From Bacteroidaceae bacterium (GTDB lineage Bacteria > Bacteroidota > Bacteroidia > Bacteroidales > Bacteroidaceae): 54,966 nucleotides of DNA. Position numbers and translations under genes: made by a program. Position 1 is the stretch's first letter. Each line of letters begins with the position of its first letter. Of this stretch, positions 21,517-50,755 are shown piece by piece. The stretch covers positions 1-54,966 of the forward strand of contig JAFUYM010000061.1 in assembly GCA_017470525.1 (NCBI GenBank). Direction: 5' to 3'. The notes beneath the pieces are model-generated. The model searched no databases. It saw only the letters and a list, made by a program, of their open reading frames with translations, and was not told the DNA's origin.

Positions 21517-22182
21517 ATGGTTATGGCAGAGGTAAGACAGATTATATTGGCGGACAATCAGGATGTGACGCGGTTGGGCTTGAAGACCATCATCCGTGGG
21601 GCACTCTCGGGTGTGGAGAACCTTGTGGTGAAGGAATTGAGCCGACGGGCAGAACTGATTGCGGAACTGAAGGAGAATCCTTCATCGGTTGTGGTGATTG
21701 ACTATACCCTGTTTGACTTGGGCAGTGCGGACGAGTTGCTGAACCTGAGTGAACGGTTTCCCTTTGCATTGTGGGTGCTCTTCTCGGAGGATTTGACGGA
21801 AGGGCTCATCAGGCGGTTGAGTGTGGAGCAGCAGTTCAGCATGGTGCTGAAGACGGACTCGGCGCAGGAAATCATCACAGCATTGAAGTGTGCGGTGACG
21901 GGTGTACGTTTTCTCTGCCATCAAGTGACAAACTTACTGCTCACACCGCACACACCGATTGAACGGGAAGACCAACTGACTGCTACAGAACGTGAGGTGT
22001 TGCGTCTGATTGCGTTGGGCAAGTCGGTGAAGGAGATTGCGGCTGAACGCAATTCGAGCATCCACACGATTACGACGCACAAGAAGAACATCTTCCGCAA
22101 AATCAGGGTGAACACGGTGTATGAGGCTACGAAGTATGCCCTCCGTGCAGGACTGGTGGAAATGGTGGAGTATTATATATAA
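21517..22182 (+). CDS. NarL/FixJ-family response regulator
   Basis: 221 residues (start could also be the ATG at 21523). The receiver domain has the acidic pocket 'LADNQDVTR' (D13), candidate phospho-acceptor D62 in 'VVVIDYTLFD' and a lysine in 'MVLKTD'. The C-terminal LuxR-type helix-turn-helix spans about 152-210 (LTATEREVLRLIALGKSVKEIA). It should bind DNA as a dimer. No sensor kinase gene is present in the window. It lies between susC and the sulfur cluster, and NarL-type proteins bind 7-2-7 palindromes like the repeated TACC-N8-GGTA dyads; that it controls those promoters is inference. Its mRNA leader carries the structured element. Confidence 0.88.
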   Translation: MVMAEVRQIILADNQDVTRLGLKTIIRGALSGVENLVVKELSRRAELIAELKENPSSVVVIDYTLFDLGSADELLNLSERFPFALWVLFSEDLTEGLIRRLSVEQQFSMVLKTDSAQEIITALKCAVTGVRFLCHQVTNLLLTPHTPIEREDQLTATEREVLRLIALGKSVKEIAAERNSSIHTITTHKKNIFRKIRVNTVYEATKYALRAGLVEMVEYYI

Positions 22183-22214
22183 TTCAAATTTCGGGTGTTT
22201 TTTACGCTTCGCGT

Positions 22215-22344
22215 GACGAAAGAAAAACAGAAAAAAACAAGTAAAAACAAATAAAAACAGGTCTTTCTTGTTTCATTTCTGTTAGAAAAACGAAGAACAT
22301 GTTTTTATTTGTTTTTACTTGTTTTTATTTGTTTTTTCTTCGTC
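22215..22344. repeat. Long A/T-rich inverted repeat, family 2 copy 1
   Basis: Arms start GACGAA (22215) and end TTCGTC (22344); inside are AAAACAAGTAAAAACAAATAAAAACA and its complement, almost 50 bases each with few mismatches. It fills the gap between the regulator and the MetZ-like gene. No promoter box of good quality is seen here. Confidence 0.7.
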
Positions 22345-22381
22345 CGCCGAAGGCGAAAACGGCTAAACTTTTATATTGAAT

Positions 22382-23557
22382 ATGAGAAAGAACACAATAG
22401 CAATTGATACGAAACTGCCTCGCACGGATGCATACGGGGCGATTGCCATGCCAGTGTATCACACGGCAGCGTATGAGTTCGGGACGGCGAAGGAGATGGC
22501 GGATGCTTTCTGCGGCAGGGTGCTGGCTCCCGACTATTCGAGGGTGATGAACCCGACGGTGATGCACTTGGAGGACACGGTGAAGGCTCTGACGGGGGCA
22601 GCGAATGTGTTTGCCTTCTGTTCGGGCATGGCGGCGATTACGAATGCGCTGCTGGCTGTGGTGGAGCAGGGCAAGAAGGTGGTCACGTCGAAGCATCTGT
22701 TTGGGAACACGGTGGCGTTGCTCAACAAGACGTTGGCACGGCTGGGCGTGGAGACCCAAATGGTGGACTTGCTGGACTTGGAGGCTGTGCGCAATGCGGT
22801 GGATGAGAACACGGCTTGTCTGTTCATGGAGATTGTGACGAATCCGCAGATGGAGGTGGCTGACATCAAGGCGTTGGCAGCAATTGCCCATGAGAAGGGT
22901 GTGCCGCTGATTGCCGACACGACGGTGATTCCGTTCACACAGTTCAGCGCGAAGGCATTGGGCGTGGATATTGAGGTGGTTTCGTCCACGAAGTATATCT
23001 CGGGCGGCGCGACGTCGTTGGGCGGTTTGGTGATTGACTATGGTTCGTTCCCGGTGGTGAACCAGCGCATACGGTTCGAGTTGCTGTTCAATGTGGGCAG
23101 TTATATGGCGCCTCATGCAGCGTATATGCAGTCGTTGGGCTTGGAGACGCTGGACGCACGTTACAGGGTGCAGGCAGGGAATGCATTGGCATTGGCAAGG
23201 AAGTTGAGGGAGGTGCCCGAAATCAAGCGGGTGAACTATATCGGCTTGGAGGACAATCCGTTCTATGCGTTGGCAAGGGAGCAGTTTGGAGAGACCAGCG
23301 GAGCCATGCTGACGATTGACTTGGCAGACAAGCGGACGTGCTTCCGGTTCATCGACAGCCTGAAGTTGGTGCGCAGGGCGACGAACCTGTTTGACAACAA
23401 GACCCTTGCCATTCATCCTTACAGCACGATTTTCGGTCCTTTCAGCGGTTCGCAGAAGAGGGAGATGGATGTGCTGGACACGACGATTCGCCTCTCAGTG
23501 GGCTTAGAAGATGTGGAGGATGTGTTTGAGGATATCGTGCAAGCGGTGGGGAGTTGA
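22382..23557 (+). CDS. MetZ/MetY-like O-acyl-homoserine sulfhydrylase (Cys/Met metabolism PLP enzyme)
   Basis: 391 residues from the ATG at 22382 (the frame opens with TTG at 22376). It belongs to the Cys/Met-metabolism PLP family: 'SGMAAITNALL' at about 81-91, catalytic lysine K204 in 'SSTKYISGG', and the C-terminal 'LSVGLEDVEDVFEDI'. Length fits MetZ. It likely replaces the acyl group of O-acetyl- or O-succinyl-homoserine with sulfide or thiocarboxylate sulfur to give homocysteine; cystathionine gamma-synthase or lyase activity cannot be excluded. It heads the sulfur cluster. In Wolinella succinogenes, MetY/MetZ enzymes are encoded with HcyS, HcyF and HcyD, whose equivalents follow here. 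Confidence 0.85.
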   Translation: MRKNTIAIDTKLPRTDAYGAIAMPVYHTAAYEFGTAKEMADAFCGRVLAPDYSRVMNPTVMHLEDTVKALTGAANVFAFCSGMAAITNALLAVVEQGKKVVTSKHLFGNTVALLNKTLARLGVETQMVDLLDLEAVRNAVDENTACLFMEIVTNPQMEVADIKALAAIAHEKGVPLIADTTVIPFTQFSAKALGVDIEVVSSTKYISGGATSLGGLVIDYGSFPVVNQRIRFELLFNVGSYMAPHAAYMQSLGLETLDARYRVQAGNALALARKLREVPEIKRVNYIGLEDNPFYALAREQFGETSGAMLTIDLADKRTCFRFIDSLKLVRRATNLFDNKTLAIHPYSTIFGPFSGSQKREMDVLDTTIRLSVGLEDVEDVFEDIVQAVGS

Positions 23558-23583
23558 CAATTGACAGTTGATGGTTGAGGGAA

Positions 23584-23653
23584 TACCATAAATGTGGTAG
23601 TAAAATGCCGTAAAGAAGGTATATGGCAATTGGGTGAAAACCACGAACTTTGC
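23584..23653 (+). promoter_or_regulatory. Promoter with two operators in front of cysK
   Basis: Dyads TACCATAAATGTGGTA (23584-23599) and 23606-23621; box GAACTTTGC at 23645-23653 departs from TAnnTTTG at its first base. The 70- and 48-base spacing equals that of susC and susD although this promoter faces the other way. Confidence 0.7.
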
Positions 23654-23690
23654 ACCAGAAATTATTTATAGACAAAAAACTTTAATCACT

Positions 23691-24626
23691 ATGGCAAGAA
23701 GAGTAGCAAACAGTTTGACTGAACTGATTGGCAGGACGCCGCTTCTGGAACTGTCGAAAACAAAGAAGCAGCAGAAGTTGAAGGCGCGCATCTTGGCGAA
23801 ACTGGAGTATCTGAACCCGGGCAGAAGCGTGAAAGACCGCGTGGGTTTGGCACTGATTGAGAGGGCTGAAAAACAGGGTCTTCTCAACAAGAACACCGTC
23901 ATCATCGAGCCGACAAGCGGCAACACGGGTGTGGGATTGGCATTGGTGGCTGCACAGCGCGGCTACAAACTGATTCTGACCATGCCTGACAGCATGAGCA
24001 TCGAACGCAGGACGCTCCTGAGAAGTCTGGGCGCCAAGTTGGTGCTGACTCCTGCTTACGAGGGCATGCCGGGCGCCATCCGCAAGGCGAAGGAACTGGC
24101 TGCTGAGACGAATGCTTTCATTCCGCAGCAGTTTGACAATGAGGCAAATCCGCAGATTCACCGCACGACCACGGCGAAGGAGATTTGGGAAGACACGGCA
24201 GGACGTGTGGACATCTTCGTGGCTGGCGTGGGCACGGGCGGCACCATCACGGGTGTGGGCGAGGTGCTGAAGAGCCTGAACCCCAAGGTGAAGGTGGTGG
24301 CTGTGGAGCCTTACGACTCGCCGGTGCTGTCGGGCGGCAAGCCGGGTCCGCATAAGTTGCAGGGCATCGGTGCGGGTTTCAAGCCGGGTGTGCTGAACGA
24401 GGCGGTGTATGACGAAATCTTCAAGGTGAAGAATGAGGATGCGTTTGCCGCGAGCCGCGAGTTGGCAAAGTCGGAGGGTGTGCTGGTGGGCATCAGCAGT
24501 GGTGCAGCCGCTCATGCCGCTATCCAGATTGCCAAGCGCCCTGAGAATGCGGACAAGACCATCGTGGTGCTGTTGCCCGACACTGGCGAACGCTACTTGA
24601 GCACTGCTTTGTTTTCAGAAGAATAA
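23691..24626 (+). CDS. cysK: Cysteine synthase A-type O-acetylserine sulfhydrylase
   Basis: 311 residues from the ATG at 23691, chosen over 23634 because the latter would lie inside the promoter and family members begin near '[16 protein letters not shown]'. PLP lysine K48 in 'NPGRSVKDR', substrate loop 'TSGNTG' at 75-80, and the glycine-rich '[10 protein letters not shown]' loop are all present. It joins sulfide, or possibly the thiocarboxylate of the neighbouring carrier protein (as CysM does with CysO in mycobacteria), to O-acetylserine to form cysteine. First gene of the regulated cluster ending with the encapsulin pair. Confidence 0.93.
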
Positions 24627-24651
24627 CACAAAAACAAAATTAATTAGAAAA

Positions 24652-24775
24652 ACAACGAATATATCTAATATTCCGAATAAGAAATGGGCAAGCCCGACGA
24701 ATGAAATCATTCTGATTTTTCGAATGGAAATGCCATACATTTGTTTTCATTCGGTAGATTTGGAAAATTCGTTGT
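24652..24775. repeat. AACAACGAAT...ATTCGTTGTT inverted-repeat element, family 1 copy A
   Basis: Ends are ACAACGAAT and ATTCGTTGT. The interior contains repeated CGAAT/ATTCG words. It separates cysK from the sulfur-carrier gene. Confidence 0.7.
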
Positions 24776-24794
24776 ACAAAAAACTTCAATCAAA

Positions 24795-25031
24795 ATGGCA
24801 AAAATTATCGTAAACGGTGAGGAGCAGGAGGTGCTGCTCCCTGCCACCGTGGCAGACATCATCAAGCAGAACAATGTGGCACAGCCTGAAATGGTGAGTG
24901 TGCAGGTGAACGAGGAGTTCGTTGACCGTGAAGAGTTCTCGACGCTTCAGTTGAAGGAGGGCGACGAGGTGGATTTCTTGTACTTCATGGGAGGGGGAAC
25001 AGCGAATGTTTCGAATCTTGCGAATGAATGA
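24795..25031 (+). CDS. ThiS/HcyS/CysO-like sulfur-carrier protein with a C-terminal extension
   Basis: 78 residues from the ATG at 24795. It has the ubiquitin-like ThiS/MoaD fold pattern (AKIIVNGEEQEV...LLPATVADIIK...VQVNEEFVDREEF...LKEGDEVDFLYFMGG). The Gly-Gly that should end the chain (G66-G67, G68) is followed by ten more residues, TANVSNLANE. Such a precursor needs a protease to expose the Gly-Gly; a JAMM peptidase gene lies downstream at 27493. The mature protein would be adenylated and converted to a thiocarboxylate that donates sulfur for cysteine or homocysteine synthesis, rather than for thiamine, judging by the neighbours. Confidence 0.85.
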   Translation: MAKIIVNGEEQEVLLPATVADIIKQNNVAQPEMVSVQVNEEFVDREEFSTLQLKEGDEVDFLYFMGGGTANVSNLANE

Positions 25032-25071
25032 TGTGAGATGGTGAATATGTCGAATTTAACAGAAGACGGAT

Positions 25072-25881
25072 ATGTTTGATTTCACAGAAGAAGAGTTGAA
25101 CCGTTACTCGCGGCACATTCTGTTGCAGGATGTGGGCGTGGAAGGTCAGGAGAAGATACGTGAGGGCAAGGTGCTCGTGGTCGGCGCTGGCGGACTGGGC
25201 GCACCGGTTGCCATGTACTTGGCTGCGGCTGGTGTGGGCACCATCGGCATCGTGGATGGCGACGTGGTGGACCTGAGCAACTTGCAGCGCCAGATTATCC
25301 ACACCACACCCGATGTGGACAAGTGGAAGGTGGAATCCGCCAAGGAGACCATCAACGCGATTAACCCCCACGTGAAGGTGGAGACGCACAGAGAGTTTCT
25401 GATGGCTGACAACGCGCTGGACCTGGTCAGGGAGTATGACTTCATCGTCGATGGCACCGACAATTTCCCCGTGAAGTTTCTGATTAACGATGCCTGCGTG
25501 ATGGCTGGCAAGCCGTTCAGTCATGGCGGCATCCTCAGGTTTGAGGGTCAGACGTTCACGCATGTGCCGGGTACGGCTTGCTACCGTTGCATGTTCAAGA
25601 CTCCGCCACCACCGGGAGCGGTGCCGACGTGCAGTCAGGCAGGTGTGCTGGGTGCCATTGCTGGCATGCTGGGCACGATTCAGGCTGCGGAGACGCTGAA
25701 GTGGCTGACAGGGGTGGGGGAACTGCTCACGAACAAGTTGCTCACGTTCAACGCGAAGACGATGGACTTCCGCAAAATCAACGTGAAGAAGACTGACCGG
25801 TGCCCCATCTGCGGCGCGAACCCCACGATTACGGAACTGATTGACTACGAACAGGCTGCTTGCGACCTGAAAGGACATTGA
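25072..25881 (+). CDS. ThiF/MoeB/HesA-family sulfur-carrier adenylyltransferase (HcyF-like)
   Basis: 269 residues. Nucleotide loop 'GAGGLG' at 38-43, the 'VDGDVVDLSNLQRQ' strand at 61-74, 'DGTDNF' at 125-130, a candidate catalytic cysteine C185 in 'PTCSQAGV', and a zinc site from C168/C171 and C242/C245. It activates the C-terminal glycine of the adjacent carrier with ATP. There is no rhodanese domain as in long MoeB forms, so sulfur must come from another protein, for example TusA, DsrE or the cysteine desulfurase of this cluster. Confidence 0.88.
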   Translation: MFDFTEEELNRYSRHILLQDVGVEGQEKIREGKVLVVGAGGLGAPVAMYLAAAGVGTIGIVDGDVVDLSNLQRQIIHTTPDVDKWKVESAKETINAINPHVKVETHREFLMADNALDLVREYDFIVDGTDNFPVKFLINDACVMAGKPFSHGGILRFEGQTFTHVPGTACYRCMFKTPPPPGAVPTCSQAGVLGAIAGMLGTIQAAETLKWLTGVGELLTNKLLTFNAKTMDFRKINVKKTDRCPICGANPTITELIDYEQAACDLKGH

Positions 25882-25921
25882 ACAGAACAGGAATGATAGA
25901 TAAGTAACGCTATTTTTTGGA

Positions 25922-26110
25922 ACAACGAATTTTGCGAATATGACGAATTTGTTTTCTTGCAATGCCGCAAGCGGCAACGAATGGAAACGAATATCGCCAC
26001 AAGCAATGAGCCTGCCGCATGGCAGAGCCGTCCGAGGCTCCCGTTCGTTTTCATTCGTCGTCGCCCTGCGACATGAAAAAGCGATTCGTTCCATTCGTGA
26101 AATTCGTTGT
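25922..26110. repeat. Family 1 inverted-repeat element, copy B
   Basis: ACAACGAAT at 25922 and ATTCGTTGT ending at 26110; interior includes GCCGCAAGCGGC and several ATTCGTT/AACGAAT words. Between the E1-like and DsrE genes. Confidence 0.7.
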
Positions 26111-26160
26111 CCCAAGAACTTGACAGGCGTGATGACTATTCATAAATATATATATGTGAT

Positions 26161-26640
26161 ATGGAGACAAAGAAGAAACTGTCATTGATTGCCTTCTCGG
26201 GCGACTTCGACAAACTGACCGCGGTGTTCACCCTGGCGACGGGGGCTGCGGCTGTGGGATATGAGGTGAACATCTTCTTCACCTTCTGGGGCTTGGATGC
26301 CATCAAGCAGAAGCGGGGACGGAGTTTCACGGGCGGCTCGTGGCTCACCCGAATCTTCGGGTTCATGATGGGTGGACTGAGTGTGGCACCGAACAGCAAG
26401 TTCAACTTCTGCGGCATCGGGCCCAAAGTGTTCCGCCACTTGATGAAGAAGCAGAATGTGGCGACACTGGAGGAGTTGGTGGATGCCGCCAACGCGCTGG
26501 GCGTGAACCTCTATGCGTGTGAGATGGCGATGCACGTGCTCGGACTGGAGAAGAAGGACTTCATCCACGAGGTGAAGGACGTGCTGGGCGTGGCGACATT
26601 CCTCAACATCAGCGAGGGGGGCAGGACGATGTTCATCTGA
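26161..26640 (+). CDS. DsrE/DsrF-like (DsrE2-type) sulfur-relay protein
   Basis: 159 residues. It follows the DsrE2 pattern: 'KLSLIAFSGDFDKLTAVFTLATGAAAVGYEVNIFFTFWGL' start, a hydrophobic middle (FGFMMGGL), and the conserved cysteine region 'GVNLYACEMAMHVLGL' near residues 114-129. DsrE-family proteins accept and pass on persulfide sulfur, often with TusA, which is encoded next. In the cytoplasm or at the membrane it may carry sulfur from the cysteine desulfurase towards the carrier protein. Confidence 0.8.
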   Translation: METKKKLSLIAFSGDFDKLTAVFTLATGAAAVGYEVNIFFTFWGLDAIKQKRGRSFTGGSWLTRIFGFMMGGLSVAPNSKFNFCGIGPKVFRHLMKKQNVATLEELVDAANALGVNLYACEMAMHVLGLEKKDFIHEVKDVLGVATFLNISEGGRTMFI

Positions 26641-26844
26641 GCAAGGCAGTCACGGACGAGCCGATGCGGAGGGGAGAAAATAAAAAGGTGTGCCGTCTGC
26701 ATCACCTCCGAAAAGATGCCTCCAGCACATCATGATGAATATCATCACTGGCAAAGATAAGAATAATTTTCCGAACCTCCAAATTTTCTTAACGTTATTT
26801 AACTAAAAAAACTGCATTTTTTCTTGCAAAAACGGAACGTCGTA

Positions 26845-26913
26845 GCCGATAAATTGATAACGACGTTATCGATTAATTGATTACGACGTTGTCGATAAAT
26901 TGATTGCGACGCT
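26845..26913. repeat. Three tandem 23-bp repeats
   Basis: Units at 26845-26867, 26868-26890 and 26891-26913, core ATAAATTGATTACGACGTT-like. The 398-base gap 26641-27038 otherwise holds nothing recognisable. No spacer structure, so it is not a CRISPR array. Confidence 0.8.
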
Positions 26914-27038
26914 GCAGTTTTTGCTAACTCGACATTGCACCGGAACGGATTTCGCCGCAAGCCCATTTCAGGCACCGCCGGAACCCGAAAACCGGACCCG
27001 ACAGAAACATAAAAACCAAAAAGAAAGGAGACAAAGAC

Positions 27039-27263
27039 ATGGCAACTCACACACTCGACATCACCCGGGAGCATTGCCCGATGACCTTCGTGAAGACAAA
27101 ACTCAAACTGGCGCAAATCGCTCCCGGCGACACGCTCGAAGTGCTCCTCACCGAGGGGGAGCCGCTGGAGAATGTGCCGCGCTCGGCAAGGGAACAGGGC
27201 TACAACGTGCTCTCGGTGGAGCACGTGGAGGGTAATGTGCACAAAGTAACTATACAGAAGTAA
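27039..27263 (+). CDS. TusA/SirA-like sulfur-transfer protein
   Basis: 74 residues. The TusA fold is seen as 'HTLDITREHCPMTFVKTKLKLAQIAPGDTLEVLLTEGEPLENVPR' with the single catalytic cysteine C13 in the CP motif at the N-terminus of the first helix. It carries persulfide sulfur between a desulfurase and downstream acceptors. An AAGGAGA ribosome site precedes the start. A SirA-like gene is also part of the Wolinella HcyS cluster. Confidence 0.88.
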   Translation: MATHTLDITREHCPMTFVKTKLKLAQIAPGDTLEVLLTEGEPLENVPRSAREQGYNVLSVEHVEGNVHKVTIQK

Positions 27264-27306
27264 CATGATTTCGGTATCAGACAATGTGAAGCCAAATGCT
27301 TTTATC

Positions 27307-27461
27307 GCCTTCGGCGGACGAAAGAAAAACAGATAAAAACAAGTAGAAACAAATAAAAATAGGTCTTACTTGTTTTTTAAATCTGTACAAATGATGACGA
27401 AGAACCTGTTTTTATCTATTTTTATTTGTTTTTATCTATTTTTTCTTCGTCCGCCGAAAGC
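27307..27461. repeat. Family 2 inverted-repeat element, copy 2
   Basis: Arms GCCTTCGGCGGACGAA (27307-27322) and TTCGTCCGCCGAAAGC (27446-27461) flank A-rich and T-rich tracts. The same outer word CGTCCGCCGAAGGCG borders copy 1. Confidence 0.75.
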
Positions 27462-27492
27462 GAATAACTGTTAACAAACTCAAGTAGAAGCA

Positions 27493-27891
27493 ATGAACAT
27501 CATTATTACCGAAAGCGCCTACCAGTCCATCCTGGCACAGGCACAGAAGGACGCGCCCGTGGAGTCGTGCGGCTACCTGCTCGGCACCGACCGCGACATC
27601 GTCACGGAGAACTATCCCATGACGAACATCGACCACTCCGAGGAGCACTTCACCTTCGACCCCAAGGAGCAGTTCGCCATGCTGAAATATGCCCGGCAGA
27701 AGGGGCTCAGCATCGTGGGCAACTGGCACAGCCACCCCGCCTCCCCCTCCCGTCCCTCGGAAGAGGACAAGCGGCTCGCCCTCGACCCCAACATCCTCTA
27801 CTTCATCCTCTCCCTGGCAGAGGAGAAGCCTGTACTGAACGCCTTCCGCATTGTGGATGGCGAAGTGAAAGAGAAAATTCCACTGAGATAG
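27493..27891 (+). CDS. JAMM/MPN+ metalloprotease (HcyD/Mec+-like)
   Basis: 132 residues with the full JAMM zinc motif: E24 in 'PVESCGYLLG', H79 and H81 in 'NWHSHP', S89 and D92 (HxH-x7-S-x2-D). In CysO and HcyS pathways such enzymes release the amino acid from the carrier or trim the carrier's C-terminus. The neighbouring carrier has a ten-residue tail after its Gly-Gly-Gly, a natural substrate. Between two family 2 repeats, in front of the encapsulin gene. Confidence 0.88.
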   Translation: MNIIITESAYQSILAQAQKDAPVESCGYLLGTDRDIVTENYPMTNIDHSEEHFTFDPKEQFAMLKYARQKGLSIVGNWHSHPASPSRPSEEDKRLALDPNILYFILSLAEEKPVLNAFRIVDGEVKEKIPLR

Positions 27892-27956
27892 ACAACACTA
27901 TACATTATTAATTAATAACTGAATTTTCGGATGTGATTTTACCGCAAGCGGTCTTT

Positions 27957-28060
27957 CAAAAACAAGAAAAAACCTAAAAAGACCCAAAATAACAAATGGC
28001 TCATTTGAAGAAGATGATGGTTTTATGAGGTTTTCTTTGGTTTTTTCTGGTTTTTCTGAA
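27957..28060. repeat. Family 2-like inverted repeat, copy 3 (diverged)
   Basis: AAAACAAGAAAAAACC on the left and GGTTTTTTCTGGTTTTTC on the right, preceded by CCGCAAGCGG. Between the protease and encapsulin genes. Confidence 0.55.
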
Positions 28061-28087
28061 GACGCGAAGCGTTAAAAACAACTTTCG

Positions 28088-29551
28088 ATGATTAAAAAAC
28101 AAACCAACAACATGGCAGACAACAACATTCAGCGCAGCATCACGACTGCAACGGCTCGCAAACTTGCGAACACCACCAAGACGCCCCCCCAGATGGGCAG
28201 TATCACACCGAGACTCCTTCTCAAACTCCTCCCCTGGACACAGGTGGAGAGCGGCACCTACCGCGTCAACCGCACCAAGGTGGAACTGAAGAAGGCAGAG
28301 CGCATCGAGATTCAGTACTTCGACGGCGTGCCCAGTTTCACGGCAAAGAACCTACGCGCCATCCCGCTCTTCCAGAACATCGACCAGGAAATCGTCGCCC
28401 GCCTCGCACGCAACTTCGTGCCCGTGGAAGTGGCACGCGGCAAGAACCTCGTCACCCAGGGCACGGACAAGCAGCGCTTCTTCATCGTGGCAAGCGGTCA
28501 GGCTGAAGTCATCAGCACGGGCACACACGGCGAGGAGTTGCGCATCGCCCTTCTCGGCAATGGCGAATACTTCGGCGAGGCAGACCTGCTGAGCGCAGCC
28601 GACTCCACCGTCAGCGTCCGTTCCGTCACCGACTCAGTCTTCCTGGTGCTCGACACACCCGTGCTCGAATCCCTCATCGAGGAAATCCCCGACTTCCGCA
28701 ACCAGTTCAACAATGCCGTGGATAAGCAACTGCGCCTCAAAGCCACCGTCAACGAGCACGGCGAGAAGCACATTGACCTGGTGAGCGGACATGAAGAGGA
28801 CAACGTCATCCCCGAAACCTACATCGACTACGAGGAGAACCCAACGGAATACTCCCTCAACACCCTGCAGACAGTCGTCCGCGTACACACCCGTGTGAGC
28901 GACCTCTACAATGCGCCATACAACCAACTCGAACAGCAACTCCGCCTCTCCATCGAGAGCATCAAGGAGCGCCAAGAGTGGGAACTCATCAACAACAAGA
29001 AGTTCGGTCTCCTCGCCCAAACCGCCCCGGGCTACAAGATCAGTGCGCGCTACGGGACTCCGACCCCAGACGACCTCGACGAACTCCTCTCGCTCGTCTG
29101 GAAAGAGCCAGCCTTCTTCATCGCCAATCCACGCGCCATCGCCGCCTTCGAGCGTGAATGCACTTGGCGTGGTGTGCCACCTGTGGCAATCGACCTCTTC
29201 GGCACTAAGGTCATCACCTGGCGCGGAGTGCCCATCATCCCGTCCGACAAAGTGGAAGTGAAGGGACAATACCTGACCAACCGTGGCGTCGGCACCACCG
29301 AAATCATCCTTGTGCGTGTAGGCGAGAAAGAGCAAGGAGTCGTAGGTCTGCATCAGGCAGGCATCCCCGGCGAAATCGCTCCAAGCCTCTCGGCACGTCT
29401 GATGGGACTCGACCAGTACGGCGTGGCAAGTTACTTGCTCACGAAGTACTTCAGCCTTGCCTCCCTCACCGACGATGCCATTGCAGTCCTCGAGAACGTA
29501 GAGGTAGGCTATTACCACGATTATCAGCACCGCAATAAAATAGAAAAGTAA
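28088..29551 (+). CDS. Family 2 encapsulin shell protein with cNMP-binding-like domain
   Basis: 487 residues (an internal ATG at 28112, giving MADNNIQ, is an alternative start). HK97-fold encapsulin segments flank a cyclic-nucleotide-binding-type domain at about 92-205 (IPLFQNIDQEIVARLARNF ... GEYFGEADLL), the mark of family 2B shells. The C-terminal part, with 'RYGTPTPDDLDELLSLVWKEPAFF' and 'FGTKVITWRGVPIIPSDK', matches family 2 encapsulins. The phosphate-binding cassette reads FGEADLLSAADSTVSV without the usual R-[TS]-A, so ligand binding may be lost. It should build a protein nanocompartment around the cysteine desulfurase encoded by the overlapping next gene. Confidence 0.9.
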   Translation: MIKKQTNNMADNNIQRSITTATARKLANTTKTPPQMGSITPRLLLKLLPWTQVESGTYRVNRTKVELKKAERIEIQYFDGVPSFTAKNLRAIPLFQNIDQEIVARLARNFVPVEVARGKNLVTQGTDKQRFFIVASGQAEVISTGTHGEELRIALLGNGEYFGEADLLSAADSTVSVRSVTDSVFLVLDTPVLESLIEEIPDFRNQFNNAVDKQLRLKATVNEHGEKHIDLVSGHEEDNVIPETYIDYEENPTEYSLNTLQTVVRVHTRVSDLYNAPYNQLEQQLRLSIESIKERQEWELINNKKFGLLAQTAPGYKISARYGTPTPDDLDELLSLVWKEPAFFIANPRAIAAFERECTWRGVPPVAIDLFGTKVITWRGVPIIPSDKVEVKGQYLTNRGVGTTEIILVRVGEKEQGVVGLHQAGIPGEIAPSLSARLMGLDQYGVASYLLTKYFSLASLTDDAIAVLENVEVGYYHDYQHRNKIEK

Positions 29552-31224
29552 TGTATCTGAACGAGTTAGATAACTTTCACTTTGACTTGCCGAACTTGGG
29601 AACAGCACCGCAAGTGGCAGTGCCGAACGAGGCACCCGACGAGTTGGACTTGTCGGCATTGCCATTGCCCACAGGCTTTCCATCGGGAGGAAGTGTCTTG
29701 CCAACAGGGGGAGCCGCCGTGCCATCGGCAGGAGCAGGCGACCTTCCATTGACGGGCAGCGTGGAGGATGCCCCTCAAATAGGCAGCCTCAGCCCTGCTG
29801 GCACCGAACTCTTCAAGGGAGTCATTGCCAAATACTTTGCAGAGGACCTCTCCTCCTACGAGGCTCCTTCCCGTGTTGTTCCTTCAGAGGGTGACGACGT
29901 GGAGCCACAGGAGAAGCGATGTCTGCTGAAAGACAACGGCTTTGGCATCGGCATTCCCGAGACGGAGATAGTCAAGAACCTCCAGTACGAGGAGGCGGAC
30001 ACGGTGAACACCACCGAAATCCGCAAGCAGTTCCCCATCCTGCATCAGAAGGTGAACGGGCACGACCTCGTGTGGTTCGACAACGGCGCGACGACACAGA
30101 AGCCCCTGCGTGTGATTGACGGATTGAGCGAGTTCTACAAAACCGACTACTCCAATATTCACCGTGGGGCACACACGTTGGCGGCTCGAAGCACCGACCA
30201 GTACGAAGGTGCGCGCGAGAAGGTGGCGCGCTTCATCAATGCCCCGTCGAAGGACAACATCCTCTTTGTGCGTGGCACCACCGAGGGCATCAACCTCATC
30301 GCACAGACGTTTGGCAGGAAGTACTTGGAGGAAGGCGATAACGTCATCGTCTCTACGCTCGACCACCATGCCAACATCGTGCCTTGGCAGCAAATCTGCA
30401 AGGAACGGAAAGCGGAACTCCGTGCCATCCCCATCGACAAGAATGGTGACCTCATCCTGAGTGAATTGGAACGTCTCATCACGCCTCGCACTAAGTTCGT
30501 CAGTGTGGGTCATGTGAACAATACCTTCGGCACTATCAACGACGTGGAAAGCATCATCCGCACAGCACATTCGCACAATATCCCCGTGCTCATCGACGGT
30601 GCCCAAAGCATTGCCCACACCCAAGTGGATGTGCAGCGCCTCGACTGCGACTTCTTCGTGTTCTCCGGACACAAGATTTACGGTCCTTCAGGCATCGGAG
30701 CCGTCTATGGCAAGAAGGAACTCTTGGAGCAACTTCCACCATGGCAAGGCGGTGGCAACATGATTAAAGACGTCACCATCGAACGCACCGAGTTCAACGG
30801 TCCTCCAGCACGTTTCGAGGCAGGCACACCCAACATCGCCGATGCCATTGGCTTGGGTTATGCCCTCGACTTTGTGCAAAGCGTAGGAATCCACAACATC
30901 GAACACCACGAACACGAACTGACCGAGTATGCCCGTCAGCAAATCAGTCGCATACCGGGCATCACCATCATGGGTAATCCCAAGAAGCGGGTCAGCGTCA
31001 TCTCACTCGACATCCCGGGCATCCCCGCACCACAGGTAGGGCAATTGCTTGACAAGGAAGGCATTGCTGTCCGTGCTGGTCACCACTGTGCACAGCCAGC
31101 CCTGCGAGCCCTTGGCTATGAGATGTCGGTACGTCCTACATTTGCCGTCTATAACACGAAGGAAGAGGTTGACCGTCTGGTCATTGCTCTTCAGAAAATA
31201 GTGGCAGACGTGCAGCAGAAATAG
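29551..31224 (+). CDS. SufS-like cysteine desulfurase with encapsulin-targeting N-terminal extension
   Basis: 557 residues; start overlaps the encapsulin stop as TAATG. Residues 1-154 are low-complexity, rich in P, G, A, L and acidic residues (DELDLSALPLPTGFP ... GDLPLTGS), as in known cargo-loading extensions of encapsulated desulfurases. From about 155 a complete SufS fold follows: 'FDNGATTQKP', PLP lysine K375 in 'FSGHKIYGPSG', and catalytic C513 in 'RAGHHCAQP'. It removes sulfur from L-cysteine as persulfide or elemental sulfur, presumably inside the shell. Its products could feed TusA/DsrE and the thiocarboxylate pathway, or be stored. Confidence 0.92.
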   Translation: MYLNELDNFHFDLPNLGTAPQVAVPNEAPDELDLSALPLPTGFPSGGSVLPTGGAAVPSAGAGDLPLTGSVEDAPQIGSLSPAGTELFKGVIAKYFAEDLSSYEAPSRVVPSEGDDVEPQEKRCLLKDNGFGIGIPETEIVKNLQYEEADTVNTTEIRKQFPILHQKVNGHDLVWFDNGATTQKPLRVIDGLSEFYKTDYSNIHRGAHTLAARSTDQYEGAREKVARFINAPSKDNILFVRGTTEGINLIAQTFGRKYLEEGDNVIVSTLDHHANIVPWQQICKERKAELRAIPIDKNGDLILSELERLITPRTKFVSVGHVNNTFGTINDVESIIRTAHSHNIPVLIDGAQSIAHTQVDVQRLDCDFFVFSGHKIYGPSGIGAVYGKKELLEQLPPWQGGGNMIKDVTIERTEFNGPPARFEAGTPNIADAIGLGYALDFVQSVGIHNIEHHEHELTEYARQQISRIPGITIMGNPKKRVSVISLDIPGIPAPQVGQLLDKEGIAVRAGHHCAQPALRALGYEMSVRPTFAVYNTKEEVDRLVIALQKIVADVQQK

Positions 31225-31278
31225 TTTTTCTACTTCAAAAACGATGGCTTAATGCCATAACAGATGAAGTTTTTTGTC

Positions 31279-31316
31279 AGCCCCATGCTATCTGTGAAGA
31301 CGGCGTGGGGCTTTTT
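31279..31316 (+). terminator. Terminator of the sulfur/encapsulin cluster
   Basis: AGCCCCATGC (31279-31288) pairs with GCGTGGGGCT (31303-31312, one G-T pair), followed by TTTTT. Confidence 0.8.
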
Positions 31317-31351
31317 CCGTGTGATACTCTTTGTATGTCAGATTTTTTGTG

Positions 31352-31383: not shown

Positions 31384-32556
31384 ATGATGTATGATTTTGA
31401 CAAACCTGTTGACCGTAAGGGAACAGGTGATTTGAAGCATGAGGTGTTGGCAGAGCGGTATGGCAGAGCGGATTTGTTGCCGCTCTGGGTGGCAGATATG
31501 GATTGGGAAACGCCTGCCTTCATCACGGATGCGCTGAAGGCACGGATGGAGCACTCGCTGTTTGGCTACACGGTGGAGCCGAAGGAGTATTGGCAGACTG
31601 TGCAACAGTGGATTGAGGAGCATCACCAATGGAAGGTGGAGCGGGAGTGGATGACTTACATCCCTGGCATTGTAAAAGGCATCGGCATGGTCATCAATTT
31701 CTTCCTGAAACCAGACGAGAAGGTGATTGTGCAGCCGCCTATTTATCATCCGTTCTATCTGACACCACAAGGAAATAAGCGAGAAGTGGTGTGGAATCCG
31801 CTGAAAGCAGACGGGAACTCTTATTCTATGGATTTTGACAATCTTGAACAGGTGTGTGATGAGAAGTGTCGATTGCTCATCCTTGCCAATCCGCATAACC
31901 CTGCTGGCATTGTGTGGGACAGGGATACACTACAGCGATTGGCACATTTTGCGAAGGAGCACAACCTGATTGTGATTAGTGATGAGATTCACTGCGACAT
32001 GGCATTGTATGGCAACAAGCACATCCCGTTCGCCTCGGTGAGTGACGAGGCGGCTGAGGTGAGCATCACGTTCTGTGCACCCAGCAAGACGTTCAACATT
32101 GCTGGCATTGTCAGTTCATGGTGTATCATTCCGAACGAACAACTGCGGAAGCCTTTCTATGATTGGCTATCGGCAAATGAACTGAACGACCCCAACATAT
32201 TTGCACCGATTGCAACGATTGCTGCCTTCAAGCATGGAGAAGAGTGGCGACAGCAGATGGTGAAGTATGTGGAAGGAAATATTGAGTTTTTGATTGATTA
32301 TTGTCAAAAGCATATTCCACAAATCAAGCCGTTGCGTCCTCAAGCATCTTATCTGGTGTGGCTCGATTGTCGAGCGTTGGGCTTGAATCAACAGAACCTT
32401 GTAGATTTCTTTGTCAATAAGGCTCATCTTGCACTGAATGACGGGGCTATGTTTGGTCCTGGTGGTGAAGGTTTCATGCGACTGAATGTGGGAACGCAAA
32501 GGAGTGTGTTGGAAATGGCATTGAAACAGTTGGAAGAGGCTGTAAAAGGTCTATGA
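31384..32556 (+). CDS. MalY/PatB-family PLP-dependent C-S beta-lyase
   Basis: 390 residues (the second ATG at 31387 is an equal choice). Characteristic beginning 'MYDFDKPVDRKGTGDLKHE', 'LPLWVADMDWETP', 'NPHNPAGIVW', 'SDEIHCDM' and the PLP lysine in 'APSKTFNIAG'. Family members cleave cystathionine or cysteine-type C-S bonds to give homocysteine or sulfide, pyruvate and ammonia. It has its own promoter after the encapsulin-cluster terminator, but continues the sulfur amino acid theme of the region. Confidence 0.88.
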   Translation: MMYDFDKPVDRKGTGDLKHEVLAERYGRADLLPLWVADMDWETPAFITDALKARMEHSLFGYTVEPKEYWQTVQQWIEEHHQWKVEREWMTYIPGIVKGIGMVINFFLKPDEKVIVQPPIYHPFYLTPQGNKREVVWNPLKADGNSYSMDFDNLEQVCDEKCRLLILANPHNPAGIVWDRDTLQRLAHFAKEHNLIVISDEIHCDMALYGNKHIPFASVSDEAAEVSITFCAPSKTFNIAGIVSSWCIIPNEQLRKPFYDWLSANELNDPNIFAPIATIAAFKHGEEWRQQMVKYVEGNIEFLIDYCQKHIPQIKPLRPQASYLVWLDCRALGLNQQNLVDFFVNKAHLALNDGAMFGPGGEGFMRLNVGTQRSVLEMALKQLEEAVKGL

Positions 32557-45745: not shown

Positions 45746-45764
45746 ACTCGGATAAGGTTTTTTA

Positions 45765-45900
45765 ACAACGAATTGCACGAATGAGTCGAATAGGAGGAAA
45801 TGCCGCAAGCGGCAACGAAGACAAGCGAATGCCATTCGTTTTTATTGGTCACCGCTTGCGGTATTTCTCGTTCATTCGTTCTATTTGTGTCATTCGTTGT
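45765..45900. repeat. Family 1 inverted-repeat element, copy C
   Basis: ACAACGAAT to ATTCGTTGT. Contains GCCGCAAGCGGC and ACCGCTTGCGGT. Between the two pectin genes. Confidence 0.7.
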
Positions 45901-45906
45901 TGAAAG

Positions 45907-50516: not shown

Positions 50517-50547
50517 AAAGACGGACTTTGAACTTTGATTTTTAGAA

Positions 50548-50708
50548 ACAACGAATTTGTCGAATTAAACGAATAATCGGGAATGCTGCAAATGCAGCGA
50601 CGAATAAAAACTAATGTCATTGGTTTCTGCCAAGTTGAAAAATTCGTTTTCATTCGTTGCCGTTCACGGCATTGAAAAATCATTCGTCCAATTCGTGTCA
50701 TTCGTTGT
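50548..50708. repeat. Family 1 inverted-repeat element, copy D
   Basis: ACAACGAAT to ATTCGTTGT, with many CGAAT/ATTCG words. Between ilvE and the nucleotidyltransferase gene. Confidence 0.7.
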
Positions 50709-50755
50709 TGAAAAAGAAAGAATAGATGTATAACAATTAGTTTATTTTCCTGTTT

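Follow-up and report, generated by a model that had tools for sequence, protein, structure and literature searches.

A family 2B encapsulin and a neighbouring cysteine desulfurase share a conserved neighbourhood with carrier-protein sulfur genes in rumen Bacteroidales

What would bring the genes for a protein cage and a cysteine desulfurase together with those for a protein that carries sulfur as a thiocarboxylate? The question is raised by a contig from a Bacteroidaceae bacterium (JAFUYM010000061.1), of which positions 1-54,966, the whole stretch analyzed, are here called the window. Nine plus-strand genes at 22382-31224, found as open reading frames (ORFs) and by profile search, encode a MetZ-like enzyme, CysK, a ThiS-like carrier, an E1-like enzyme, DsrE2, TusA, a JAMM protease, an encapsulin (a virus-derived protein cage) and a SufS-type desulfurase. 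A reading made from the letters by themselves (the sequence-only reading) had picked out this row and suggested that sulfur from the shell reaches the carrier through TusA and DsrE2. We find that the two halves belong together in rumen Bacteroidales as one conserved neighbourhood, and we have next to no doubt that the nine genes form a real, conserved unit. The earlier observation is thereby confirmed and its interpretation partly supported, the passage of shell sulfur to the carrier through TusA and DsrE2 being a proposal. The features are as follows.

21517-22182, plus strand: LuxR-family regulator, probable tenth gene of the cluster (GerE domain, 53.3 bits)
22382-23557, plus strand: MetZ/MetY-like homocysteine synthase, a pyridoxal phosphate (PLP) enzyme (Cys_Met_Meta_PP, 312.9 bits; 3RI6, 356.5 bits)
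23691-24626, plus strand: CysK, the genome's second cysteine synthase (TIGR01139, 459.8 bits, cut-off 350.95)
24795-25031, plus strand: ThiS-like sulfur carrier whose FMGGG precedes a 10-residue tail (ThiS Pfam, 47.6 bits; TIGR01683, 64.3 bits, cut-off 37.45)
25072-25881, plus strand: E1-like carrier-activating enzyme without a rhodanese domain (ThiF, 279.7 bits)
26161-26640, plus strand: DsrE2-like sulfur relay protein (DrsE_2, 136.7 bits)
27039-27263, plus strand: TusA-like sulfur relay protein (TusA, 78.4 bits)
27493-27891, plus strand: JAMM metalloprotease, putatively carrier-processing (Prok-JAB, 90.1 bits; 2KKS, 139 bits)
28112-29551, plus strand: family 2B encapsulin shell protein with an inserted cNMP-binding-like domain (encap_f2b, 556.6 bits, cut-off 400)
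29551-31224, plus strand: putative cargo, a SufS-type cysteine desulfurase extended at its N-terminus by about 150 residues (TIGR01979, 552.2 bits, cut-off 475.1)
About 31279-31312, plus strand: intrinsic terminator, a hairpin with a T run behind it (fold of 31225-31330)

The ORFs, the family matches and the hairpin bear out the description of a plus-strand cluster ending in a terminator. The stretch 31225-31330 folds at -37.1 kcal/mol (z = -5.43), and none of 200 shuffled sequences was equally stable. The TAATG overlap read earlier, in which the encapsulin gene ends and that for SufS begins, was found at 29549-29553, and alignment places the encapsulin start kept among relatives at 28112.

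A search of genome contigs for the encapsulin gave 435 relatives, and the best 80 were used as named loci, a sample biased to close relatives. Fifty-two of the 80 are flanked by at least 4.5 kb before and at least 3.5 kb after the encapsulin match. DsrE2, TusA and SufS are present in every flanked locus, with SufS adjoining the encapsulin gene each time; ThiS, E1 and JAMM are each found in 50, CysK in 47 and MetZ in 45, and all eight partners of the encapsulin occur together in 38. Since these 52 loci were assembled separately, a chance or misassembled join of the two halves is excluded, as is the absence of a conserved neighbourhood that would have undone the sequence-only reading. When ORFs were clustered without any guide in 33 loci (32 dereplicated, plus L161), the nine cluster families were the most frequent (31, 29, 25, 25, 23, 23, 23, 21 and 16 loci), with LuxR (8 loci) and a CysE-like protein (6) next.

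Within the neighbourhood the order of genes varies. In different loci the carrier genes stand between CysK and DsrE2, behind SufS or ahead of CysK; in L094 and L118 they are inverted upstream, and in L130 they follow MetZ. Several relatives have gaps of just a few bases and look operon-like, with spacings of 5, 2, 4, 71, -4, 17 and -1 nt in L066 and 1, 11, 3, 20, 0, 3, -4 and 3 nt in L112. The closest named relatives (L051 and L052, both Bacteroidaceae, from the reticulum of a goat and the omasum of a yak) have encapsulins 99% identical to that of the window. MetZ is missing from seven flanked loci and CysK from five. The notion that these two are strict alternatives was set aside: no flanked locus lacks both, and chance predicts about 0.7, so the comparison is uninformative.

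The association extends to whole genomes. With weak hits dropped (encapsulin in G452 of the family sample and G109 of the order sample; JAMM in G338, G366, G408 and G492 of the family and G072, G093, G190 and G242 of the order), 37 of 301 genomes from the family have the encapsulin and 39 the cluster-type JAMM protease. Both are found in 35, the encapsulin alone in two (one of them on a 4-kb contig), JAMM alone in four and neither in 260. Among 295 genomes from the order, five have both, none the encapsulin alone, five JAMM alone and 285 neither. Fisher tests of co-occurrence give p ~8e-39 and 1e-8, values that serve only as description, since the tests take related genomes to be independent. 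In the genus of the window 24 of 45 genomes carry the encapsulin family. A Prevotella metagenome-assembled genome (MAG), RGIG5985, has encapsulin loci on two different contigs (L119 and L106), carrier genes being within reach of just one of them; this could reflect two copies or strain mixing.

What the carrier half does is indicated by the carrier itself. In all 73 named loci in which it was compared, between 1 and 40 variable residues follow an invariant FMGGG, whereas 13 of 13 ThiS-family proteins from outside the cluster, drawn from encapsulin-bearing and encapsulin-free genomes, end exactly at GG (one of these controls, L260, is more MoaD-like than ThiS-like). Twelve cluster carriers recovered by the same ThiS-family search as the controls are all tailed, and so are nine of the ten carriers in loci fetched by JAMM. 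This pro-carrier signature is new. The JAMM protease, with 2KKS as its nearest solved structure (139 bits), has a complete motif, in which E24, H79, H81, S89 and D92 are invariant in 71 sequences. A tail constant in presence and variable in sequence, together with an intact JAMM protease next door, is in keeping with a pro-carrier that this protease matures, and the alignments strongly suggest that JAMM removes the tail and frees the glycine end. In the HcyS/HcyD pair the carrier tail is reportedly removed by a JAMM protease in this way.

The E1 has ThiF as its sole Pfam domain and lacks rhodanese; Cys187 and the four cysteines of its CxxC motifs are invariant in 73 sequences. An E1 and a JAMM protease could also be the remains of ubiquitin-like conjugation or an antiphage system, and padloc does return partial matches, the E1 to an E1-E2 profile (64.2 bits) and JAMM to a JAB profile (36.3 bits). 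These scores are weak beside the 348-bit MoeB-type match of the E1, none of the nine conserved families is E2-like, and the E1 and JAMM keep company with sulfur enzymes, so that such a function is scarcely credible. CBASS or Bil-type conjugation was rejected for the lack of an E2-like partner and the weakness of the padloc matches.

Among solved structures the MetZ-like enzyme is closest to 3RI6, an O-acetylhomoserine sulfhydrylase, at 356.5 bits, 131 bits ahead of the next chain (225 bits); this proximity is also new. We take 3RI6 to be the thiocarboxylate-using enzyme of Wolinella. Lys204 is invariant in 59 aligned sequences. The substrate is not fixed by any model, because the protein reaches none of the curated NCBIfam cut-offs among the matches listed. 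It might be a cystathionine gamma-synthase paired with a PatB-type lyase, with ThiS and E1 serving thiamine synthesis. A PatB-family gene overlaps MetZ by 11 nt in L115 and L123, and a PatB-type C-S lyase (31384-32556) directly follows the cluster here; yet the MetZ-like enzyme scores at most 170 bits to chains named solely as cystathionine gamma-synthase, among the matches listed, and separate ThiS-family genes ending at GG are present in most encapsulin genomes examined. We consider this transsulfuration scheme very improbable. The PatB overlap suggests in its own right a further link to sulfur amino acids.

The carrier tail, the complete JAMM protease and the proximity of MetZ to 3RI6 thus agree with the earlier comparison to the homocysteine pathway of Wolinella. 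The parallel drawn at the same time with CysO/CysM fits less well than that with HcyS, because the synthase is CysK-type: it exceeds the cysK model as listed above, and its score against cysM (TIGR01138, 286.5 bits) is under the cut-off of 394.2. That the carrier is matured by JAMM and serves homocysteine or cysteine synthesis is in our view likely. The window genome and four other encapsulin-bearing genomes of the genus each have two CysK proteins above the model, and three encapsulin-free genomes have one; the encapsulin genomes G406, G433 and G355, from outside the genus, also have one each. Of the relay proteins, the DsrE2-like protein reaches the Pfam DrsE_2 threshold and falls under the curated NF047629 model (69.6 bits, cut-off 210), and its Cys120 is invariant in 78 sequences. 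TusA Cys13 is invariant in 73.

Turning to the other half, the shell protein is by its sequence a family 2B encapsulin, for which icosahedral assembly is predicted. An SrpI-like HK97-type shell domain is present (PF19307, 371.7 bits, cut-off 22.8), and the nearest solved structure, 9BJE, aligns over residues 6-466 of 479 with 372.8 bits. A phage capsid was considered and rejected, the one PHROGs match being of 28 bits to a major head protein, against 557 bits to the encapsulin model. Residues 113-198, which separate the N-arm from the main shell domain, form the inserted domain that the sequence-only reading had called cNMP-binding-like. The family match stands (PF00027, 56.8 bits), but the usual phosphate-binding arginine does not. 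In the second site of the cGMP-dependent kinase structure 3SHR this is the arginine of RTANV, which binds the phosphate; its counterpart here is Ser165, invariant in 18 aligned encapsulins including distant ones. This agrees with a statement in PMC12407261 that the cyclic nucleotide-binding-like domains (CBDs) of family 2B do not bind cyclic nucleotides.

The desulfurase domain of SufS (TIGR01979) covers residues 156-550 of 557, in accord with the N-terminal extension described earlier. Against the curated cargo model NF041166, named for family 2A, SufS scores 693.1 bits, below the cut-off of 800. In all 15 encapsulin-bearing genomes examined there is a second, N-extended SufS beside one of ordinary length, and in none of 10 encapsulin-free genomes. 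No housekeeping SufS was seen in the 83%-complete genome of the window, where PF00266 has just one other long match, a phosphoserine transaminase. The motifs LARLANEFFS and AASPYYFLDG, described for the extension of the 2A desulfurase (PMC8049743), were not seen by eye in the window SufS extension; similar stretches occur in the distant relatives L161 and L173. Conserved within the extension are residues 82-95, ELFKGVIAKYFAED, and GFGIGIPET just before the enzyme domain, and both are candidates for a loading signal. In an AlphaFold model of low confidence most of residues 1-151 are below 50 in predicted local distance difference test (pLDDT), with one predicted helix at 82-95. The low values are compatible with disorder, and we have not counted them as evidence.

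A possible answer to the question can now be set out, and on balance we favor it: an operon-like unit that would put sulfur on amino-acid precursors by way of a carrier protein, with the protein cage as the sulfur source. The N-terminal extension would load the desulfurase into the shell, as the family suggests, and the enzyme would there turn cysteine into alanine, its sulfur being held or stored as is known for related 2A shells. TusA and DsrE2 would pass the sulfur to E1. The tail of the carrier would be trimmed by JAMM, a step strongly suggested by the sequences, and the exposed glycine end would by homology be adenylated by E1 and then converted to a thiocarboxylate, from which the MetZ-like enzyme would make homocysteine. 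The dedicated second CysK could use the thiocarboxylate for cysteine, or could make the cysteine that charges the cage. Cysteine sulfur could thus either bypass cystathionine on its way to homocysteine or be banked for later use. That the shell is a rechargeable sulfur depot we would put at nearly, but not quite, an even chance.

Clusters without a cage offer a view of what might replace it. In six of nine encapsulin-free JAMM loci (L229, L230, L232, L233, L235 and L236) a sulfite reductase is close to the carrier genes, and there is none in the 80 named encapsulin loci. This contrast is new. Pfam finds a sulfite/nitrite reductase with a C-terminal TusA at L230:4558-6879, L233:10446-12824, L235:7401-9740 and L238:6757-9174, the last from an encapsulin genome; the reductase of L229 is cut by the contig end. 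Such a fusion has the appearance of a reductase with a built-in sulfur relay. The fullest row, that of L233, comprises CysK, the carrier, MetZ, E1, DsrE2, TusA, JAMM, the sulfite reductase-TusA fusion and siroheme-type genes. The fusion occurs in eight of the 301 family genomes, all eight with the cluster JAMM and six also with the encapsulin; of the 39 JAMM genomes, 29 have the encapsulin alone, two the fusion alone, six both and two neither. To judge from gene content, the donor in cage-free clusters is probably a sulfite reductase, in most cases one fused to TusA. TusA and DsrE2 are likely to be a shared relay, because they accompany the cluster with or without its cage.

The cluster also looks to have been horizontally transferred. 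Compared with three members of the genus, genomes of other GTDB families (G201, G195 and G049) have encapsulins 90-92% identical and housekeeping SufS proteins 55-58% identical, and for G406, G433, G357 and G381, of the same family, the corresponding values are 80-82% and 66-75%. The reversal of the similarity ranking suggests that the cluster has moved across family boundaries. For most of its remaining genes, too, the window is no closer to the same-family loci than to the other-family ones, though the margins are small for SufS, DsrE2 and E1. At the level of the phylum (L172-L178) the encapsulin is 63-65% identical and is paired with SufS and CysK, some loci adding MetY, LuxR, CysE-like and thiazole-synthesis genes. 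In all three of L173, L177 and L178 the family 2B encapsulin and SufS are joined to CysK, a LuxR-like regulator and MetY/MetZ-family enzymes; L173 is annotated with ThiF-like, ThiG, radical SAM-BATS and CysE-like genes, and the ThiS of L178 terminates at GGG. Since these loci have CysK and no JAMM, the tie of encapsulin and desulfurase to cysteine synthesis is older than that to a JAMM-type carrier. Their family f125 resembles, we presume, Chlorobi in gene content.

Taken jointly, these elements lead to a larger proposal: that the organelle is a dedicated rechargeable depot, that TusA and DsrE2 draw its sulfur to a protease-matured carrier for homocysteine, and also cysteine, without cystathionine, and that it is a plug-in for sulfite reductase-TusA, transferable in rumen Bacteroidales. 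We offer this tentatively, as falling somewhat short of an even chance. A number of findings weigh against the reading we favor, in which the cage is the sulfur source of the carrier. The intergenic gaps in the window are large (199, 133, 168, 40, 279, 398, 229 and 220 bp as far as the TAATG overlap), which speaks against a single transcript here. AlphaFold models of the shell domain and SufS are of low confidence (mean pLDDT 42.8 and 60.5) and give no support for loading. The carrier of L233 is partnered by JAMM and ends at GGG without a tail. No sulfite reductase is found in the encapsulin-free loci L231, L234 and L237, the last of just 3.5 kb, and the encapsulin and the fusion are not mutually exclusive, as six encapsulin genomes carry both. 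L100 and L102 retain encapsulin, SufS, DsrE2 and TusA with no ThiS, E1 or JAMM nearby; G357 and G381 have the carrier genes on a separate contig, together with a sulfite reductase-TusA fusion; and L172-L178 give no match to DsrE2, TusA or JAMM.

The last three of these findings would be expected if the locus held two sulfur modules tied only by shared regulation, the cage storing surplus cysteine sulfur and the carrier being fed by sulfide or sulfite. Carrier clusters without an encapsulin, in five of the 295 order genomes and four of the 301 family genomes, point the same way, as does the pairing of the phylum-level encapsulin with CysK and CysE-like genes. Such loose coupling sits poorly with the near-complete co-occurrence, with the repeated re-packing of the genes into short-gap operons and with the presence of TusA and DsrE2 beside caged and cage-free forms alike. 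We regard it as unlikely, while giving it more weight than any other alternative.

A further difficulty concerns CysK. If fed from the cage it would be circular, because the desulfurase consumes cysteine, unless the sulfur is stored or CysK acts upstream. In the latter case sulfide would become cysteine and then be stored by caged SufS, as detoxification or banking, with the carrier as a withdrawal route only. This direction removes the circularity and suits an enzyme of CysK rather than CysM type, and the CysE-like genes in six of the 33 clustered loci are in keeping with it (the examples in L068 and L173 score below the cysE cut-off). CysK nevertheless adjoins the carrier genes in the encapsulin-free L233 and L234, where there is no cage to charge, and we think this arrangement improbable. 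The cage as a sulfur source for the carrier is the reading we retain.

The surroundings of the cluster add some detail. The LuxR-family regulator at 21517-22182 probably belongs to it: a match of at least 40% identity lies at most 1 kb from the MetZ gene in 27 of 59 MetZ-bearing named loci, and unbiased ORF clustering recovered the gene, as noted, in 8 of 33. Five gaps of the window cluster (22200-22359, 27305-27463, 27958-28055, 24652-24775 and 25914-26118) each contain a long imperfect inverted repeat with arms of 32-75 nt. Two of the five have AAAACAAGTAAAAACAAATAAAAACAGGT in common, with four matches in the window against none expected. The repeats seem to have been inserted, or to have expanded, later and so to have spread an operon apart, because the gaps of the sister locus L051 are much shorter. 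A second type of intergenic hairpin, with outer arms AACAACGAAT...ATTCGTTGTT and varying interiors, occurs at 24652-24775, 25914-26118, 45760-45905 and 50547-50709. No Rfam family was found in the window at the gathering threshold.

How does the locus compare with known systems? In mycobacteria CysO, CysM and Mec+ reportedly form a set of carrier, cysteine synthase and JAMM protease; the window differs in having a synthase of CysK type, under the CysM cut-off. A closer likeness is to the HcyS/HcyF/HcyD/MetY homocysteine pathway of Wolinella, said to have been worked out by Krishnamoorthy and Begley in 2011, with which the carrier half shares a tail to be removed, a JAMM protease, an E1 free of rhodanese and a sulfhydrylase nearest 3RI6. 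We know of no encapsulin or caged desulfurase described for that pathway. It is cited in PMC5764234 and PMC6225789. Row 4e of Table 1 in PMC1779556 lists operons of ThiS, JAB, E1, SirA and O-acetylhomoserine sulfhydrylase, many with sulfite reductase; the row matches ours in carrier, JAB protease, E1, TusA (SirA) and sulfhydrylase, and differs in including no encapsulin, caged desulfurase or DsrE2.

The cage half is equally familiar. A family 2 encapsulin enclosing a cysteine desulfurase, taken as established in the sequence-only reading, is indeed in print, with 199 family 2B operons from nine phyla (PMC8346489), and is not new. Those operons share with ours the class of shell, the inserted CBD and a neighbouring desulfurase with an unannotated N-terminal region; the accessory genes they are said to contain are serine O-acetyltransferase and rhodanese, and section 8 of that paper mentions no set of ThiS, E1, JAMM, TusA and DsrE2. 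For the family 2A pair SrpI/CyD of Synechococcus elongatus a role in sulfur starvation was shown and storage proposed (PMC8049743), and PMC12407261 cites sulfur storage by caged desulfurases as known. The likeness lies in an SrpI-type shell with a caged desulfurase, the caging being predicted here from the genes; SrpI differs in having no inserted CBD, and the motifs of CyD are unrecognizable in the window SufS. None of the open-licence full texts searched combines an encapsulin with a thiocarboxylate or with TusA, which as weak evidence of absence leaves uncontradicted the earlier statement that no described system unites all these parts.

The fate of sulfur from a caged desulfurase has been posed as a choice between carriers and storage (PMC8049743). 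From the company of genes described here TusA and DsrE2 emerge as candidate receivers, with a pathway downstream, and the encapsulin-free relatives with sulfite reductase are natural controls. If our reading is right, bacteria abundant in the rumen connect a protein compartment to sulfur chemistry on a carrier protein. Both halves were already known separately; what appears new is the union of the encapsulin with the carrier pathway.

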